Of a stretch of DNA of 64,000 nucleotides, positions 2,681 through 60,045 are shown piece after piece; position 1 is the stretch's first letter, and the number at the start of each line of letters is the position of its first letter. The notes beneath the pieces were generated by a model that was not told the origin of the DNA, did not search any database, and was given only the letters and a program-made list of their open reading frames with translations. The stretch is from Capitulum mitella (taxonomy: Eukaryota > Arthropoda > Thecostraca > Pollicipedomorpha > Pollicipedidae), in the NCBI GenBank assembly GCA_030062745.1, contig CP099839.1, positions 21,585,324 through 21,649,323 on the forward strand. Direction: 5' to 3'. The translations under genes and the position numbers were made by a program.

Positions 2681-29012
<26,332 letters not shown>

Positions 29013-33220: not shown

Positions 33221-33670
33221 CAGGGTCAATGAGGGCCAAGGTCACCAAAGGTCAAGGTCAAACAGCTTGTGAACTGATCCAGATTTGATTTGCAACATGC
33301 TGGTTTGTGTGAAATATGCATTCAAAGACCCTAATAAAAAGACGTGTACGCACACTGATACACTTACATATACCAGGGTCAGTAAAGGTCAAAGTCATCA
33401 AAGCTCAAAGTCAAATATCTTGTGACCTGGCATAGATTTGCTTTGCGACAACTCGATATGTATGAAATATGCATTCAAGGATCCTAATAAAAACACGTGT
33501 GCACACATGGATACGCTTATACCAGGGTGATTTCAGGTCAAGGTCATCAAAGGCCAGGGGAACTATTTTATGACCTGGTCCCGATCTGCTTTGCAATATG
33601 TCGATTTGTATGAAATATGCATTCAAAGACCCTACTAAAACACATTTGGCACATCAATACTCACATGTAT
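33221..33670. repeat. ~150-bp tandem repeat, 3 copies, GGTCA-rich
   Basis: Units start with CAGGGT at 33221, 33374 and 33523. Each contains a GGTCA cluster (TCAAGGTCA at least twice), a CTTGTGACCTGG-like stretch, GAAATATGCATTCAARGA and CCTAMTAAAA. Divergence between units is moderate. The array lies between two GGTCA-rich transposon remnants and may be part of one. Confidence 0.85.
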
Positions 33671-48634: not shown

Positions 48635-49673
48635 CTCGTCCCTAAACTCCCAGGCTCACTCGCCAATCCTCCGTGTGAAGGCGCTGCACGGTGATGCACC
48701 AAGAGTCCGTGACGGCCACTACCTCCCCCATGAGTATTGCTGGTGACGCGCACGTTCAGGGCCTCAGATAGGATCAGCGGCCGTCGAGGCCGCCAGCCCG
48801 GTTCCCTCCGCAAGCCCTCCGGCGCTGAAACGCACGGTCCAACGCAGAATAGGGTCCTGCAGTTAAGACCTTCCATAGACTTTGTCCATAGGCAGTTAAG
48901 ATAGTAGTAAGATAAGTCATCCATAGGCAGTTAAGACTTCCCATAAGACCAGCGCTCCTCCTTGAAGAGCGCTCTGAGTCAGGTTTTAAGGGTTTTGTAT
49001 CCAGACGCTGTCGCGATCTGCATGGAGAATGAAATTTTCAATGAATGTGGAATGTAAGAGAGAAGCATGACATATAACCAGTTTTCCGTTCGAAGCCAAA
49101 CAGGGGTCATACGCGGTCGTGTACTCCGGAAAACTTCATCAACCAATGAATAGTAATGTCATTATGGAATCGTATAGTTTTCACCCTCACGCCTTTCTTC
49201 TACAAGTAGCTTGGAACCGTTCAGTAGTAACGGCGAACAATCTCACGGAAGTGCGTGACGTTTAAACTTACATTTTCTCAGATGTGACGTCGACTGGTCG
49301 ACAGTCGGAATACTGAGGGTAGATCACACAGTCCTGTCGCTCATCGTCGATCGTCACGTGCATCTGCCCGGCGAGACCAACTATATGTCGGCGACACAGA
49401 GGCGCCATGGCAAGAAACCATGTTGCCACCTTTCCATTTTAATAGTGCAACGGCTATGTGAATACTTGGAATCAATCTACTCCGGACGTAAATGTTACCG
49501 TTCGCTGACTGTCCTGTCGATGTGGTGGTAGTCGTTCTGGACCCGGCGGCTGTTTAATGGGCACCCGCTCTGGGCCCAGTGGTGACCACCAGTGACCTGT
49601 GCTCTGAGGTCTGGTGGCTTCACGAGGTGTAACCGTTCTCGGCCCGGTGGTGACGTCAGTGACCTGTTCTCAG

Positions 49674-49808
49674 GTGCTCCGTGCCCTGACCCTCCTGCTG
49701 GGTGACATGCGGCGTCTGGACGAGACGCTGGAGGCCCGCAGCCGCGACTGCCATCCGGTGTGGATCTGCGTGGACGGCCTGGTGTCCACACTGCGCGGCG
49801 TTGCTCAG
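49674..49808 (+). CDS. Urea transporter exon A: start of first half
   Basis: Acceptor TTCTCAG at 49673, donor CTCAG|gttggt, phase 0 both sides. Encodes VLRALTLLLGDMRRLDETLE and ends VDGLVSTLRGVAQ, matching the pre-TM segment LTYFTGEMKE to DWILRGVGQ of UT proteins. The final Gln corresponds to a pore-lining Gln in solved UT structures. The last 39 bp plus the donor are duplicated in tandem into the following intron. Confidence 0.88.
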
Positions 49809-52800
49809 GTTGGTGGTTACGTGGACGGCTTGGTGTCCGCATTGTGCGATGTTGTTCGAGTTGTCCGCTGTGCGGAAGGCCTTGTGTTCACACTGCGCAA
49901 AGCTGCTCGGGTCGGTAGCTTTGTGGAAGGCCTGGATCCACGCTGCGCGGATGCTTGGTTTGGTGACTGTGTGGAAGGAACTCGCCGTCTTTCGTTCAGA
50001 CTAAGAAACTGTTCGTTCAGCAACAGGTCAAAACTTGTACGCAGCCTGTTTTAGATATATGGATTGCAGTTAAAGTCGTCTTATAAAAAACTGACATTGA
50101 GTCATGAAAAACAGATGGCTGCAGAACTATGAAATTCGTTTCAACACTGTGGCCAATGCAGAACGCTTTTTTGTTTTACATTATATTTCAAGAAGACTTC
50201 GTCCGTTGGATTTAGAAGACGCATAAAATATGAGTGACAAAACTATTAAACATCCACCCACAAAACATTAACATCAATCGAGGCATTTTTGTGAATGGCA
50301 GTAGAGCATGCAATGAACAAAACACTCACATACAACATTATCGTACAATGCAGTTCAAAGACGACGCAGCCGGTGCTGATGTGGTAACCAGAAGCAGTCT
50401 GTTTCGTGCAGCCACCTCCCCGTCCACAAACGCCTTCGTGGATGCAGACTTCGAGGTACGCCGATTTGCATCTTGGCAGACGGAGACCCCCGCCTGCACT
50501 CCAGATGGTCTCGCGCACCGAGGCGAAAGAGCGCTTATGATACAGCGAACGGGGAGAAGCTGGGCGCTGTCATCGTTCAACGTCTTGTGCGGAACTTTAT
50601 CAGGTCCATCCGCCTGACCAGCCCTCAATCCGCCGCCATCCCAGGGAGCGTGAGGCCGGTATGGACTGGCGTCGCCTGGTGCCATTGGTGATTCTGGCGG
50701 AGACGCTGACGGTTTAATACGACGCGTTTGAGGTGCCATCCGGCCGCGCCACCCCATACTGGAAGACAGTAGTTTTAGAAGCGATTTAACCATTCGGGAG
50801 TCAGCATGGAAATTTTCCTCACAAGACAGCAGTTGTTCTCCGGAAAACATTTTCTTCTAGGGAAACGCGTCACATGATACAGAAATAGAATGAAACAACG
50901 GCCTTTACTGCCGAAATGCGGCTCGCGTTGTCACAAAGACTACGCTTAGTGCTTCTGCTGCCCTCTACACTCTGTCAGAGTGGTTCGGCTACCGAACTAG
51001 CGAACTAACCACCTTTTTTGACGTTCTGTGAAGTTCATATTTGAAGGCAGCTGTTGAAACTAAGTAACTGTTGGAGACGCGTTGGCCATTTTTATGCTGC
51101 CGAAACCTTGGCATGTCCAAAGGGTGGCACTACCGACAGATTCGCGTGAGACACCGGTGGCAGTGGTGATTGCCTTCAGCGTCTTCCTCTGACGTTATCA
51201 CAATCAGACGCACCTCCCGGTAGCCAGAGGGAGGGGGTTCCCTCTGACGTGATCACGATCTCCCGGCGGCCACTCCTCCCTTACCTTTGATGCTACCACA
51301 CTCAGACACATCTCCCGGTGGCCAACCCTCCCCTCTCTCTGACTTCATCACGGTCAGGCGTACCTCTCGGCGGCCACTCCTCTTCTGCTTCTGACGTTAT
51401 CATGGCCAGGCGTATCTCCCGGCGGCCACTCCTCTTCTGTCTCTGACGTTATCACAGTCAGACATATCTGACGGCGGCTTCTCTTCACTTTCCTCTAACA
51501 TTATCGCTGTTTTGCGGTGCAGGTGATTTTCGTCAACAGCCCGATGGGCGGGGCCCTGATCCTGGCCGGTCTGATCTGCAGCAACATCTTCACCGGGCTG
51601 GCCGCCCTAGTCTCCGTCATCACCGCGCTGCTGGTCTCCAAGGTAATGCCAGCTCGCTGTCCACCGCTGCCTCATTTGAGAGGGCTCGCAGCTTTGCTGG
51701 AAAGCATCTTTCCATCAGATGAAGTTTGGATCTTAGAATGACTCGCTGACGTCGATTCCCGAGGTATTTTCGACGTACGTGCCTGGTCTAACGATCTCGT
51801 TTTGTTACGGGTTTGGGATCTCGCTTGGCATCACTGTAGAGTTACGGGATCAGGGAAAGGGGTTAAACATGTGGCGTTATCCACGCCAACCTAGCCGAAA
51901 TCGTCACCGAAAATTACACTTGCGGGCACTGCCACTATAAGGTACAGGACACCGAAAACTGCCTCAGGTGGGTTAGAATGTTGTCACTACAGGGCTTCTA
52001 AAACACTTTTGTCGAGCTGAAGAACGAATGACGTGGCATCTTTGACGACATTAAGGATGACAGATAACACCCAATTTATTGTATGTACGACAGAACACCA
52101 TTGATGTATGTACGTACGGTTGTATGTACGATGTATAGAACACCACTCAGTGCTCTGTGCAAGACAAAATGTCTAGTTCGACTGGAAATCCGCTCAAGTC
52201 ATGGTTTGACCTTTCTGTATGGGCCCCGACGGTTTCATAAAAACTTGTGTATCAAGCATCATGTAAGTACTGGTCTAGGCCAGATTAGCCTCGTTGACCA
52301 GCCTCGACCTGAAATCAAAAGCCTGTGTTCTGGAGACCAGTTACTCAAGTTTGTTCTCCAGGTAAATGCCACATCTTTTCGTATATTTAGAGGATGTTTT
52401 TTGCCATAGTGATTCAGAGGACCGTTCTATAGCGGTCATTTTTTTCGGCGCACTTCATGCTTTGAAAAAAGTAACCATTAACAGGAACAGTCTTTTGCAT
52501 CTGACGAGCCGTACCCAACCATTTTTTCTTAATGGGATGATGAAATACAAATATTTCGGAAAACGCCAAACAACTACATGACACTTCATCGACAGTTCCC
52601 TGTCCAACATTTTGCTTGATTTTTCCCAGCAGCTGTCACCATTGTACCACTAAAACACTACTGTAAAATCCGGTTGTCCTAATGTTCCGACTTTTCCGTT
52701 TCTACAAATGCAGAAACCTGCGGTGCCGCTGACGTTTCCATTCAGAAGTTTGACGGCACCTCCCTGGCTGCTCTTCCCCTTCACTGCGTCATCCTGCCCA

Positions 52801-55800
52801 TGTCGTCCACTTTACCTCGAACCTGGCCCATCCAGCTGTCTGACTGTCCTACCTGATGGGTTTCCAGCTGCTGGACCAGCCGTGTTCTGCTATCCGAGCC
52901 GGCCTGACCTCGTTCAGCGCGTGCCTAGTGGGCACGGTGACGGTGGAGCTGGTGCCGCTGCTCTACGGACAGCCGATCAGCGGCGGCCTCTTTCTGTGGG
53001 TCATCCTCATGTCCGCCCTCAGGTCAGTTTCCGTCGCGTCCGCCACGACGTCGGTGCTCCATGTGCCTACCGCGAACCCAGCTGTCACGTACTGAAGCCA
53101 GCTTGTCGTCTCCTCGCTAATCAGGCCAAGCGCATCCTGATCTTAAATCCACCATGTCTTCCCTAAGGTGAGCTGTCCTCATGGCGGCCCCGACGTCAGC
53201 TGTCTTCGTGTTCGCTCTGAGTTCAGCTGTCATCATGTTCACCTTGAGGTCAGCTGTCCTCATGTCCTCCCCCGAGGTCAACTGTCTTCATGTCCGTCCT
53301 GAGGTCAACTGTCTCATGTCCTTCTTGAGTTCAGCTGTCCTCACGCGCGCGACAAGAGCCCCGTTCTCCTCTCAGCTCTGAGGGCAGTCATCATTGTGTC
53401 CGTGTTGCCATTGGGCGTTTGGTTTGCCAAGTCCTTTATCTGAGGTCACCGGCATTGAGCTCACGTCAGAGCCACATCAGATGTTGCCACCATTCCATCT
53501 TTTGCGAGTTCTGTTCCTGAATGTGGCCGATTGTCATCACTGAACGTAATCTCCAAGACTTATGAACAGTGCTGGCTTATGCGCCATTTCTCCAGGTCTT
53601 TAATGCGAGATGGAGTTCTGTTTTTTTGGGTGCACGTTTCACCACTGAGAGATTGCCGTGGCCTATTATTTCGCTGGGGACGGCCGAATGCACCTTTGGC
53701 GAGGACCCACTCGAACACCCGTCAGTCTGATGGGGGACTTCAGTCGGCCCGTCATTCTGATGGGGAGAATTCGGTCGGCACCTCCCTGCCGGCCTCCGAG
53801 ACGGGACCCGCTCTCGCCGCAGCGTCCCGGTCGGCGGCGGTTTGGGCAACATCCTGGGCCACCTCCAGCTGCCGGCGTTCACGCTGCCGTTCAACGCGGT
53901 GACGTCGGTGCTGTTCCTGTGCCTCCACCCCGTCCCGTCCGCACAGCAGGAGGCGGCCGCCGCTGCCAACGCCACAGCGGCCGCCGTGCAGTGGGACCAG
54001 GTGAGGGCTGTCCGGTGGAGACTGAGTGGGAAGGGGGTGCGTTAAGATCAAGAAATACGCGCTGTATGAGCCGTCTGCTGAAAGGACGGTCCAAAGAAAC
54101 TGCTGAAAAACACTTTCCGTTGGTCATCTTGTAATACACAAACAGATATCGCTGCAATACATTGATTTAATTTCCAACGATTCGTCTATGCCTTGTACCT
54201 TTTAAGTAAGTTCTTTGCCATACTTTTGACACAGCGTGAAGAGGCATTGAATGTCTCTTGATCTGAATGCCCAGTCGTGCCAGTTTTTCGTGCAGTTTTA
54301 ATGAATAACAAACGTGAAGAGCAGAAAACTGCAGCAATGCTGATTTACATGGCTCTGTCATGCACAGCTCCACGACTGGCATATCAGCACCGGCTGATCC
54401 TTAAACTCATGCCGATGTACGAACCTCGGCGCCTCTCCGGTGTCCTCTGGTTCGCCAGGGCTCACGCGGCGTCAGACCTCGCGCGCTGAGCCCGGCTCTC
54501 GTGCCGCAGGTGCTGCTGGGCTCGGTGTACAGCATGGGCCAGGTGTACGCCTCCTACACGCTGCTGGGCAGCCTGTTGATGTACGCCGGCTGCCTGGTCT
54601 GCTCGCCGATCCTGGCCGCCGCCTCCTATGTCGGGGCGCTCACGGGCACGCTTCTGGGTACGCTACGCTGAGGCCAGAGCGAGGCAAGGTCCGATGGGTG
54701 TGGCTCGAGCAGGAACTCATGGGAGATATCCAGGTTAACGGCCGCGACCCGCGACGGCTCACGCCGAGCCTCGCTGTATGTCCATTCCATATTTCTTGGC
54801 GATTTGTAGTCAAGGCGGTCCGCAGCCGCAAATGTGATTCAGCGACACCAAGGTTATAGCGAGTCGCCATGCGCCTCTTGCGCAATGCCCAGTGGTGAGT
54901 GTCCTTTGGTGCGAGGACGCTTGCTCATTGGTATGCTATCCGAGGAGAGAGATTTTCGGCTGCTGACGCAGCGTGAGGAATGGCGTTTACAGCAACGCTT
55001 GATGAAGAGCTTGCTGCTCGCTTAGGGGTACCCGTTTGATCTGATAATGAACGAACCTGTCACGGGTCCCAAGTGGAGGTTATCTGATTTGTAGCGGGCC
55101 GGTCTGGAAGGGGAACAGTTTTAGACCGAGTCGGGTTGAAGGACATTGTATATCTTGCGTCCTTCGTCACGACTACTGCCGACGTTAGCTGCCCTACACT
55201 TTGCGTGCCGCTGACGTCAGCTGTCCTGTGTCCCGAGCACCGCTGATATCAAGTGTCCTGTGCTTTGTGCATTGTTGATGCCAGTGTCTTTACAGAAAAC
55301 CTTGCCGTATATATCTGCGATTTTGCGATCGGGCTAGATATTCTCAGTTCGCCCTCTGGCTAGGTCAATGCAAATCTGACAGTTTTATACGTCTCCCTCA
55401 TTGTCATGCAGCGAGTACAAGCCAGCCTTCCAACCACGGTGCTGTAATTAACAATTAAACGTCGTTATTTTCAACTGCGACTTGCTGGGAGGCAGGCCCC
55501 ACCTGGGCTGCCCAGTGGGCTGCCCAGTCGGGGCTATGCAGATATAATACTGCAAACGCCGACGAGGAAGTATATCCAGCCCGTTTGGTGGTGATACACC
55601 ACCCAGCTTGGTGGTGACATACCACAGCAGCTGGCGACTTCACAAAGGCAGAAGGTTCCACGTACATAACAATGAAACCTATTGCTGCTTCCTAACAGGG
55701 ACGTTAGGCAGCAGCAGTAAGTCTGCAGGACGTTGCTGCGTTTGCGAGATTTTGTTCCTTTCGACCTTGCATTGAGAACGGATGCAAGACGGTGGATGAC

Positions 55801-58800: not shown

Positions 58801-60045
58801 AATGTGTCGATTTTATGCGCGATGATAAATGTTACACATCAGTTTGTGCGTTCACCACTGTACTTCCATGTTCTTGCAATCTCTTTGCACGCCTGAGTCG
58901 TCCCCACAGGACACCATCTGTAACCCGCTTTGCAGGTGTCGCATTCAGCAGTGCGCCTTACGACAGCGTCTATAACGGCGTCTGGGGCTACAACGGCGTC
59001 CTGGCCGCCGAGGGCATCATGTTCTTCTTCGTGCCGTCGCCGCGGTCCGCGCTGCTGGCGGTGATGAACGCCGTTTTCGCCACCATGGTCCAGGCGGCGC
59101 TGGCAGTCAGCCTTGGCGAGGTGAGATGGCGTCACTGTACCGCAACCTGAGAGCCTCCCGGTGGGCTGGATGTTGCGCTCCCGGCGAATTTCACGTGCCG
59201 TCAGCGTCGGAAAAGACGTCGCCGTCTGCAAATTTTTGTCTGTTATTGCATGTTTTCCGTAGGGTTCAGGCTACACTGACAGTTGCTGTGCGGCTCGATT
59301 CATCAGGTAAGCTATTCAAAACATTTGGCGCGTAGTATGAAGACATCAATAGGAAGGATACAGTCAGGGGAATTTTGAATGTTGTTCTTACAGAGACAGA
59401 CATGCGCTGCCTCAAGTGCTTCGAAAACAGTTGGCGCTATGGTGTTGCCAGTCGGATTTTATTAAGGAGACATATTCTCATCTCCCATTTCGCTTAGTGT
59501 TTCGAAGCAGTTTTCACCGAATTGTGTTGGCCTAGGTCGTCCGCATATTTGGAAGATATTTTTAAGACCAAGGTTAGCAGATGCTCTTTGATGTTGTTTT
59601 CATTTTCACGAATTACTGTCGTTTTTGGGAACCGCTAGTACTGCGTTACTGTCGGATCTGAGATGTTTTTCTCTTCTTCGCTTCAGTGTGCTCCTGAAAT
59701 TTTCCCCCAAAAGCTCCTGCGCGTAAATGGGAACGCATGCAGCGACGTGCTTGTTCGTCATATGAAGCCGTATGGCGTATCACATATTTATACATCCCTT
59801 TCAAAGGATTTGAGCCCGTAAGAAAATATTGTGACACCAGAGCATCACCAGCTGCTTTCCAATTTTTTTTCTTCCGCCCAAGTCGGTGATAGCATCGGCT
59901 TAAGACGCCAATTCATTTGGCTCGATAACCGTTGACCTGACCTGACGCGACATGCGGTCGGAATTTCAGATCGGACTGCCAGTTTTCACCTTTCCGTTCG
60001 TCATATCGACGCTGTTAATGATGGCAGTTTCCACCACGGGGACAG
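49674..60045 (+). CDS. SLC14-type urea transporter, 7 exons, both ends missing
   Basis: Joined exons 49674-49808, 51523-51642, 52868-53022, 53823-54000, 54510-54657, 58936-59120, 59970-60045 give about 332 residues in one continuous frame. Family role (established): a channel-like transporter for facilitated urea diffusion, built from two homologous halves. Seen: GVAQVIFVNSPMGG against the UT consensus (Q-V-x-FVNNPLSG), LPAFTLPFN and its second-half counterpart LPVFTFPF, and SMGQVY plus VWGYNG in half two. A sequon NAT lies in the long loop between halves. The NPLSG and NPWTG signatures are divergent. Human UT-B is about 389 residues, so a short N-terminus and a C-terminal exon are lacking; the latter presumably lies beyond 64000. 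Confidence 0.9.
49770..49980 (+). repeat. 51-bp exon-derived tandem array spanning the exon A donor
   Basis: Units start at 49770 (inside exon A), 49821, 49872 and 49923 (the last 48 bp), with a fifth beginning at 49971. Unit 1 codes VDGLVSTLRGVAQVGGY; the others read VDGLVSALCDVVRVVRC, AEGLVFTLRKAARVGSF and a diverged VEGLDPRC-type copy. The 17-codon period keeps the frame open to 50052. Only unit 1 fits the transporter, so copies 2-5 are taken as intronic. Confidence 0.85.
49981..51522. other. Remainder of the intron between exons A and B
   Basis: AT-rich to about 50.3 kb, then mixed. A roughly 52-bp minisatellite occupies 51183-51510, just before exon B. No exon seen. Confidence 0.6.
51183..51510. 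repeat. ~52-bp minisatellite, about 6 degenerate copies
   Basis: Units follow the pattern CTCTGACGTTATCACRRTCA, then GRCRYAYCTCCCGGCGGCCA and CTCCTCTTCTGT. They run up to about 13 bp from the exon B acceptor, so the last copies supply its pyrimidine-rich tract. Confidence 0.75.
51523..51642 (+). CDS. Urea transporter exon B: first-half pore segment
   Basis: Acceptor GTGCAG at 51522, donor AAG|gtaatg, phase 0 both sides. Encodes VIFVNSPMGGALILAGLICS and a second hydrophobic helix ending TALLVSK. It aligns with UT VVFVNNPLSGLLILVGLFVQ, but with NSPMGG in place of NNPLSG. Confidence 0.92.
51643..52867. other. Intron between exons B and C
   Basis: 1.2 kb, GTAATG to TTCCAG. AT-rich in the middle, pyrimidine-rich near the end. 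No repeats or genes recognised. Confidence 0.6.
52868..53022 (+). CDS. Urea transporter exon C
   Basis: Acceptor TTTCCAG at 52867, donor CTCAG|gtcagt, leaving in phase 2. Encodes LLDQPCSAIRAGLTSFSACL, then VGTVTVELVPLLYG and a further helix ending VILMSALR/S. It aligns with UT DRSAIASGLHGYNGMLVGLL; the usual GYN is SFS here. Confidence 0.88.
53167..53347. repeat. ~27-bp minisatellite, about 7 copies, in intron C-D
   Basis: Repeats of GAGGTCAGCTGTCCTCATGT with variable 3-9 bp spacers. Each unit carries CAGCTG or CAACTG (E-box-like). The rest of the 53023-53822 intron shows no other feature. Confidence 0.75.
53823..54000 (+). CDS. Urea transporter exon D: LPxFTLPFN helix and inter-half loop
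   Basis: Acceptor CCGCAG at 53822, donor GACCAG|gtgagg. Enters with one base completing Ser, leaves in phase 0. Encodes LGNILGHLQLPAFTLPFNAV, the most conserved UT block (its Thr lines the pore in known structures), then an Ala-rich loop with an NAT glycosylation sequon, ending VQWDQ. Confidence 0.93.
54001..54509. other. Intron between exons D and E
   Basis: 509 bp, GTGAGG to CCGCAG. AT-rich centre, no recognised feature. Confidence 0.6.
54510..54657 (+). CDS. Urea transporter exon E: start of second half
   Basis: Encodes VLLGSVYSMGQVYASYTLLG, then SLLMYAG and a hydrophobic segment ending GALTGTLLG. It aligns with UT [20 protein letters not shown] and GSLLGIAAG. The GQV glutamine is kept, but the CDNPWTGG signature is replaced by ASYTLLGS. 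Leaves in phase 1 at CTGG|gtacgc. Confidence 0.9.
54658..58935. other. Intron between exons E and F (4.3 kb)
   Basis: GTACGC to TTGCAG, mostly AT-rich. A hAT-family right end lies at about 57719, preceded by several hundred bp of degenerate short repeats. A tRNA A-box-like sequence (TAGCTCAATTGG) lies at 56043-56054. No exon needed by the transporter is missing here. Confidence 0.55.
57085..57719. mobile_element. Probable hAT-family repeat with degenerate internal repeats
   Basis: The right end CCCTACGAAATATGACTGTA followed by CCACTG is the inverse of the family end CAGTGGCGTAGCC...TTTCGTAAGG seen at 39535 and 48315. A TGGTGGCGGAG at 57085 is a possible left end. The interior is a series of roughly 30-bp degenerate units (AAAGGGCACTTGG-like, GGATCC). 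No target duplication is evident, so the left limit is uncertain. Confidence 0.42.
58936..59120 (+). CDS. Urea transporter exon F: second-half GYN helix
   Basis: Completes Gly, then encodes VAFSSAPYDSVYNGVWGYNG, VLAAEGIMFFFVPSPRSALL and a helix ending AVSLGE. It aligns with UT LSAPFENIYFGLWGFNSSLA and the following helices. Acceptor TTTGCAG at 58935, donor GCGAG|gtgaga, phase 0. Confidence 0.93.
59121..59969. other. Intron between exons F and G
   Basis: 849 bp, GTGAGA to TTTCAG. AT-rich, with no recognised feature. Confidence 0.6.
59970..60045 (+). CDS. Urea transporter exon G: second LPxFTxPF helix
   Basis: 76 bp encoding IGLPVFTFPFVISTLLMMAV then STTGTG. It is the second-half counterpart of LPAFTLPFN and aligns with UT VGLPPCTWPFCLATLLFLLL. 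Acceptor ATTTCAG, donor ACAG|gtgagc, leaving in phase 1. A last exon for the short cytoplasmic C-terminus should follow, but none is recognisable before 64000. Confidence 0.9.

Follow-up and report, generated by a model that had tools for sequence, protein, structure and literature searches.

Is a minisatellite that spreads from the end of a coding exon into the following intron still used by the gene? This question is raised by an SLC14 urea-transporter gene on the plus strand, found within a window of 64,000 nucleotides (the whole stretch of DNA that was analysed). Seven exons, A to G, were modelled. As shown in Table 1, a 51-bp array crosses the donor site of exon A, and other duplications lie in the same gene.

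Table 1. Exons of the predicted urea-transporter gene and the duplicated elements in it. Coordinates are those of the window; a slash marks a splice junction.
Feature	Position	Strand	Basis or remark
Exon A, urea transporter	49674..49808	+	3′ end in phase 0; spliced protein against PDB urea transporters
Exon B	51523..51642	+	Canonical junction to exon A; Pfam UT and PDB alignment
Exon C	52868-53022	+	Gene model
Exon D	53823-54000	+	Gene model
Exon E	54510-54657	+	Gene model
Exon F	58936-59120	+	Gene model
Exon G	59970-60045	+	Gene model
Array copy 1, coding	49770..49820	+	Exon A end and 12 intron bases; authentic donor between 49808 and 49809
Array copy 2, intronic	49821..49871	+	36/51 identical to copy 1; aligned donor position CGA/GTTGTC at 49859
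Array copy 3, intronic	49872..49922	+	37/51 identical to copy 1; aligned donor position CGG/GTCGGT at 49910, in frame
Array copy 4 (49 bp, 49923-49971) and the start of copy 5 (about 8 bases)	49923..49979	+	51-bp register
Single duplication of the exon A acceptor region (68-bp step)	49565..49671 (49565-49604 vs 49633-49671)	+	Score 24, reached in 0/500 shuffles (maximum 16)
52-bp array, 3′ end of intron A-B	51182..51505	+	Last copy scores 18, reached in 0/500 shuffles (maximum 16)
27-bp array, 128 bp 3′ of exon C	53150..53343	+	Unit resembles exon C end and donor (TCATGTCCGCCCTCAG/GTCAG)

The gene model was assessed by homology. The phases of exons A to F are compatible, and their splicing gives an open product of 307 residues. 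Against the PDB, this product has a best urea-transporter match with an E-value of 9.6e-49 and 12 distinct sequences at an E-value of 0.001. The homology to urea transporters runs across the whole spliced A-F product, and the predicted gene is on this alignment a member of SLC14. When single pieces apart from exon D were used as separate Pfam queries, the pieces with exons B, C, E, F, and G matched UT. The curated cut-off was passed by E and F and was missed by B, C, and G (for exon B, an E-value of 3.9e-05 and 23.4 bits against a cut-off of 25), and a search with exon A alone at an E-value of 1 gave zero matches. Exon A is closed at 49808, in phase 0, by VDGLVSTLRGVAQ, and VIFVN follows from 51523. 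The stretch LRGVAQ/VIFVN across the junction is gap-free against the vertebrate transporters in the PDB, with a 3-residue gap slightly upstream. Since the spliced protein is gap-free there against solved urea transporters, the junction of 49808 with 51523 is right. A search of prokaryote contigs with the transporter protein gave 67 pattern matches, none of which was confirmed.

The 51-bp unit consists of the last 13 codons (39 bases) of exon A and the first 12 bases of the intron. The array extends from 49770 to about 49979 and holds about 4.2 copies: three are full, the fourth measures 49 bp, and about 8 bases of the fifth are present. TRF reports it with a period of 51 at 49769-49949 (score 152). 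The full copies are about 65-73% identical to each other, copies 2 and 3 sharing 33/51 positions. The exon A end aligns with the downstream stretch with a score of 27, while 500 dinucleotide shuffles averaged 9.9 and never exceeded 16. Thus, a chance origin of the array can be excluded. The first-pass annotation had described about 4.2 tandem copies of the exon end plus 12 intron bases, and TRF, the register, and the shuffle score agree with it. Its view of the first unit as the coding one is confirmed by the conservation of the copy 1 product against PDB urea transporters, by the junction, and by the phase; exon identity, junction, and phase likewise bear out a birth of the array from a coding exon end and its donor. 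The 17-codon period that it gave holds for copies 1-3 (51 bp each) but not for copy 4, which is 2 bp short. From the gap-free product across the junction, I infer that the coding copy 1 is the ancestral one.

Does the open frame of the array tell of its use? The coding frame remains open past the donor to 50051. This makes 81 codons, and the earlier count of more than 70 stands. Of the forward frames over the whole array, the coding frame and one other are open, and the third has two stops. In a simulation, the coding frame of two copies decayed by 25-35% was still open in 48-63% of runs, and 267 stop-to-stop frames of at least 80 codons exist in the window. Thus, the open frame in itself says little. 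It may simply follow from the fact that one frame was coding at the outset and that 51 is a multiple of 3. The matches between copies are spread over the three codon positions as 12/12/12 (copies 1 and 2), 11/11/11 (copies 2 and 3), and 15/11/11 (copies 1 and 3). The pN/pS ratio in the coding frame is 0.47 for copies 1 and 2, 0.93 for copies 1 and 3, and 1.0 for copies 2 and 3, both of which are intronic. Since the other frames span 0.31 to 1.0, such figures are little informative at this length. Coding selection on the array copies was rejected by the codon-position counts, the pN/pS ratios, and the simulation. The frame had also been offered as a sign of use ("still in frame"), and this part of the earlier reading is not supported, on the same evidence together with the second open frame. 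Where an array was copied from an exon, its open reading frame should be regarded with caution, as it is no evidence of use.

The array across the donor of exon A is not the only duplication in this gene. A second array, with a 52-bp period, lies in the same intron, and 17 bp separate its last copy from the end of the exon B acceptor. No relation between the 51-bp and the 52-bp arrays was detected (scores of 8 and, on the reverse strand, 9; the shuffles averaged 9.5 and peaked at 16). Most copies of the 52-bp array contain a CTGAC-like branch-point motif. The 27-bp array downstream of exon C aligns with the exon C end with a score of 18 (reached in 0/500 shuffles; maximum 17), while a control region scores 9, which was reached by 242/500 shuffles. 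Among 12,745 window anchors, the exon C end is the best match to this array, with a score of 17, the next place having 16. Because the lead is just 17 to 16, this array is probably, on sequence similarity, derived from the exon C donor. In the exon C reading frame, a stop follows shortly after 53092, ahead of a GT site of the array at 53167. Another candidate, a duplication at the acceptor of exon D (array 53718-53779), scored 13, a value reached in 3/500 shuffles, and was not taken as support.

Are such duplications enriched at splice sites? The window also contains an EGF-repeat gene on the plus strand (12144-22904), with laminin-type and PEAR1-like EGF domains in Pfam, which I take to be perhaps of the MEGF10/Draper kind. 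Local duplication was scored at the 14 splice sites of the transporter gene and at 16 sites of the EGF-repeat gene, hand-picked from score lists, against 1550 window anchors. An empirical p below 0.05 was obtained for 2/14 transporter sites and 1/16 EGF-gene sites, the latter lying within the coding EGF repeats. Over six thresholds, the enrichment at the transporter splice sites was not significant (binomial 0.07-0.24 with the window background and 0.15-0.39 with the local one). Clustering of minisatellites was not significant either: TRF gave 37 rows in the window, 18 of which have a period of at least 15, and 15 were kept after removal of 3 overlapping ones. The chosen span from exon A to exon D holds the starts of four of these (Poisson 0.008), but four within an equal distance somewhere turn up in a fraction of 0.46 of uniform placements. 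Other repeats of the window include a 35-bp minisatellite of 10.3 copies at 5303-5664 with a minus-strand frame open through it, a perfect (TC)86 dinucleotide run at 11725-11896, and an AAGGTCA-rich 153-bp tandem repeat of 2.8 copies at 33221-33640. Searches of the whole window for tRNA genes and Rfam families gave zero matches.

It was assessed whether the array could provide alternative donors adding 17 or 34 residues ahead of the first pore segment, as the units of human IFI6 do. The frame is open through the array, an in-frame GT is retained in copy 3, and IFI6 sets a precedent (PMC4526556). Donor sites were scored with an approximate matrix, GT sites in 49760-50059 being listed down to -3. 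On this approximate scale, the authentic donor CAG/GTTGGT scores 2.0 and is the best GT in the region, the runner-up (0.7) is out of frame, and scores between 0.0 and 7.1 are obtained for the seven modelled donors. Given its place in that range, the authentic donor is a weak one, and some leaky splicing from copy 3 is therefore conceivable. However, the copy 3 site reaches only -0.3 and the copy 2 site falls below -3 with the same approximate matrix, and the copies are free of coding constraint. The sites had been called donor-like, which is loosely right for copy 3 and hardly so for copy 2. The proposed 17-residue blocks would moreover split RG-[VT]-AQ/V-[IM]-F, a stretch that is gap-free against vertebrate transporters. 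In-frame alternative donors are therefore possible but not supported, and this use of the array, suggested by the first-pass annotation, is very improbable.

A different function would need no coding frame: repeated donor decoys might slow or regulate the splicing of the intron. The 27-bp array of the same gene, which is probably also derived from a donor, fits this idea, having at 53167 a site AAG/GTGAGC that scores 6.6 with the approximate matrix, above the 4.5 of the authentic exon C donor. On the other hand, the copies decay without visible constraint, and the splice-site enrichment is insignificant (at a score of 18, 2/14 sites; binomial 0.07 with the window background and 0.17 with the local one). 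A decoy function is decidedly improbable. Short tandem arrays are often mis-assembled, and the array might be an artefact of assembly. A duplicated read or a collapse error would not yield copies that diverge at about 30% of their positions, and an artefact is extremely unlikely.

Very probably, the 51-bp array is an old, decaying intronic minisatellite of the kind called "mirage" in amphioxus, with splicing most likely via 49808 only and with an open frame that is inherited and unselected. Slippage or unequal exchange would most likely have copied the 51 bp across the exon A donor, with the last part of the exon, tandemly into the intron. The exon copy may then have been kept by coding constraint, while the intronic copies drifted to their present identity. 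The donor at 49808 would be the sole one used, the rest of the array leaving with the intron, and the open frame would be a legacy of the coding copy without selection. The significance of the array, the conserved coding copy 1, the intronic copies without a coding signature, the top score of the authentic donor, and the anatomy shared with amphioxus speak for this origin. The weakness of the authentic donor and the low pN/pS of copies 1 and 2 count against it. The latter was discounted because copy 1 belongs to a genuine exon and because the same pair yields 0.44 in frame 1.

How does the array compare with known systems? Amphioxus mirages are described as tandem duplications of exon-intron boundaries, with the globin genes BflGb6 and BflGb9, Adh3, and PGBD5 as examples (PMC3087553, PMC3902484). 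They occur at 5′ and 3′ boundaries, have units of 10-72 and 150-160 bp, vary in copy number between haplotypes, and reportedly leave regular splicing undisturbed (PMC3087553, PMC3902484). The globin paper suggests that new introns may arise from them. The present array is alike in being minisatellite-like, in spanning an exon-intron boundary, and in having a unit within the reported 10-160 bp. Its authentic boundary is the terminal copy 1, and copies 2-5 are intronic, downstream of 49808. Mirage copies may hold splice signals; here, GT is kept in copies 2 and 3 in degraded contexts. The PGBD5 copies are imperfect, as are those of the 51-bp array. In contrast, the amphioxus globin copies are 81-100% alike and differ in number between haplotypes, whereas the full copies here are more diverged and come from one sequence. 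The GC content of the window is 0.43-0.65 by 4-kb block. That of lancelets is about 0.41, beside which the window looks high. If the host is not a lancelet, the mirage class would extend beyond cephalochordates. It is very unlikely that this is a non-lancelet animal gene with several mirages (at the donors of exons A and C and the acceptor of A) in which low-level use of the in-frame donor array adds 34 residues to the transporter. If that were true, new protein sequence and new introns would quite generally arise from boundary minisatellites.

Among the papers listed by a literature search that included urea transporters and tandem repeats, none described an array of this kind in a urea-transporter gene. 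The minisatellite of human IFI6 (6-16) is said to have been originally described by Turri in 1995. In this gene, minisatellite repeat units serve as donors and give three mRNAs (PMC4526556). Both arrays place repeat units, each with a donor position, where a coding exon ends; the downstream units are used in IFI6, whereas the copies here carry donors that appear degraded in the sequence. In human duplicated genes, internal tandem repeats lie at exon-intron boundaries and minisatellite expansion can create alternative splicing (PMC2812944). The expansion at a boundary is shared with the 51-bp array, but those repeats are young and variable between paralogues, while the array is old and diverged. 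In the potato RdRp gene, an intron was gained via tandem duplication across an intron-exon boundary (PMC4974935). The duplication carries splice signals along in both cases; a new intron resulted there, while an existing intron was enlarged here. The array adds a case to the small class of minisatellites born across splice sites. This kind of repeat is already known from lancelet genes, and the urea-transporter case adds to it.
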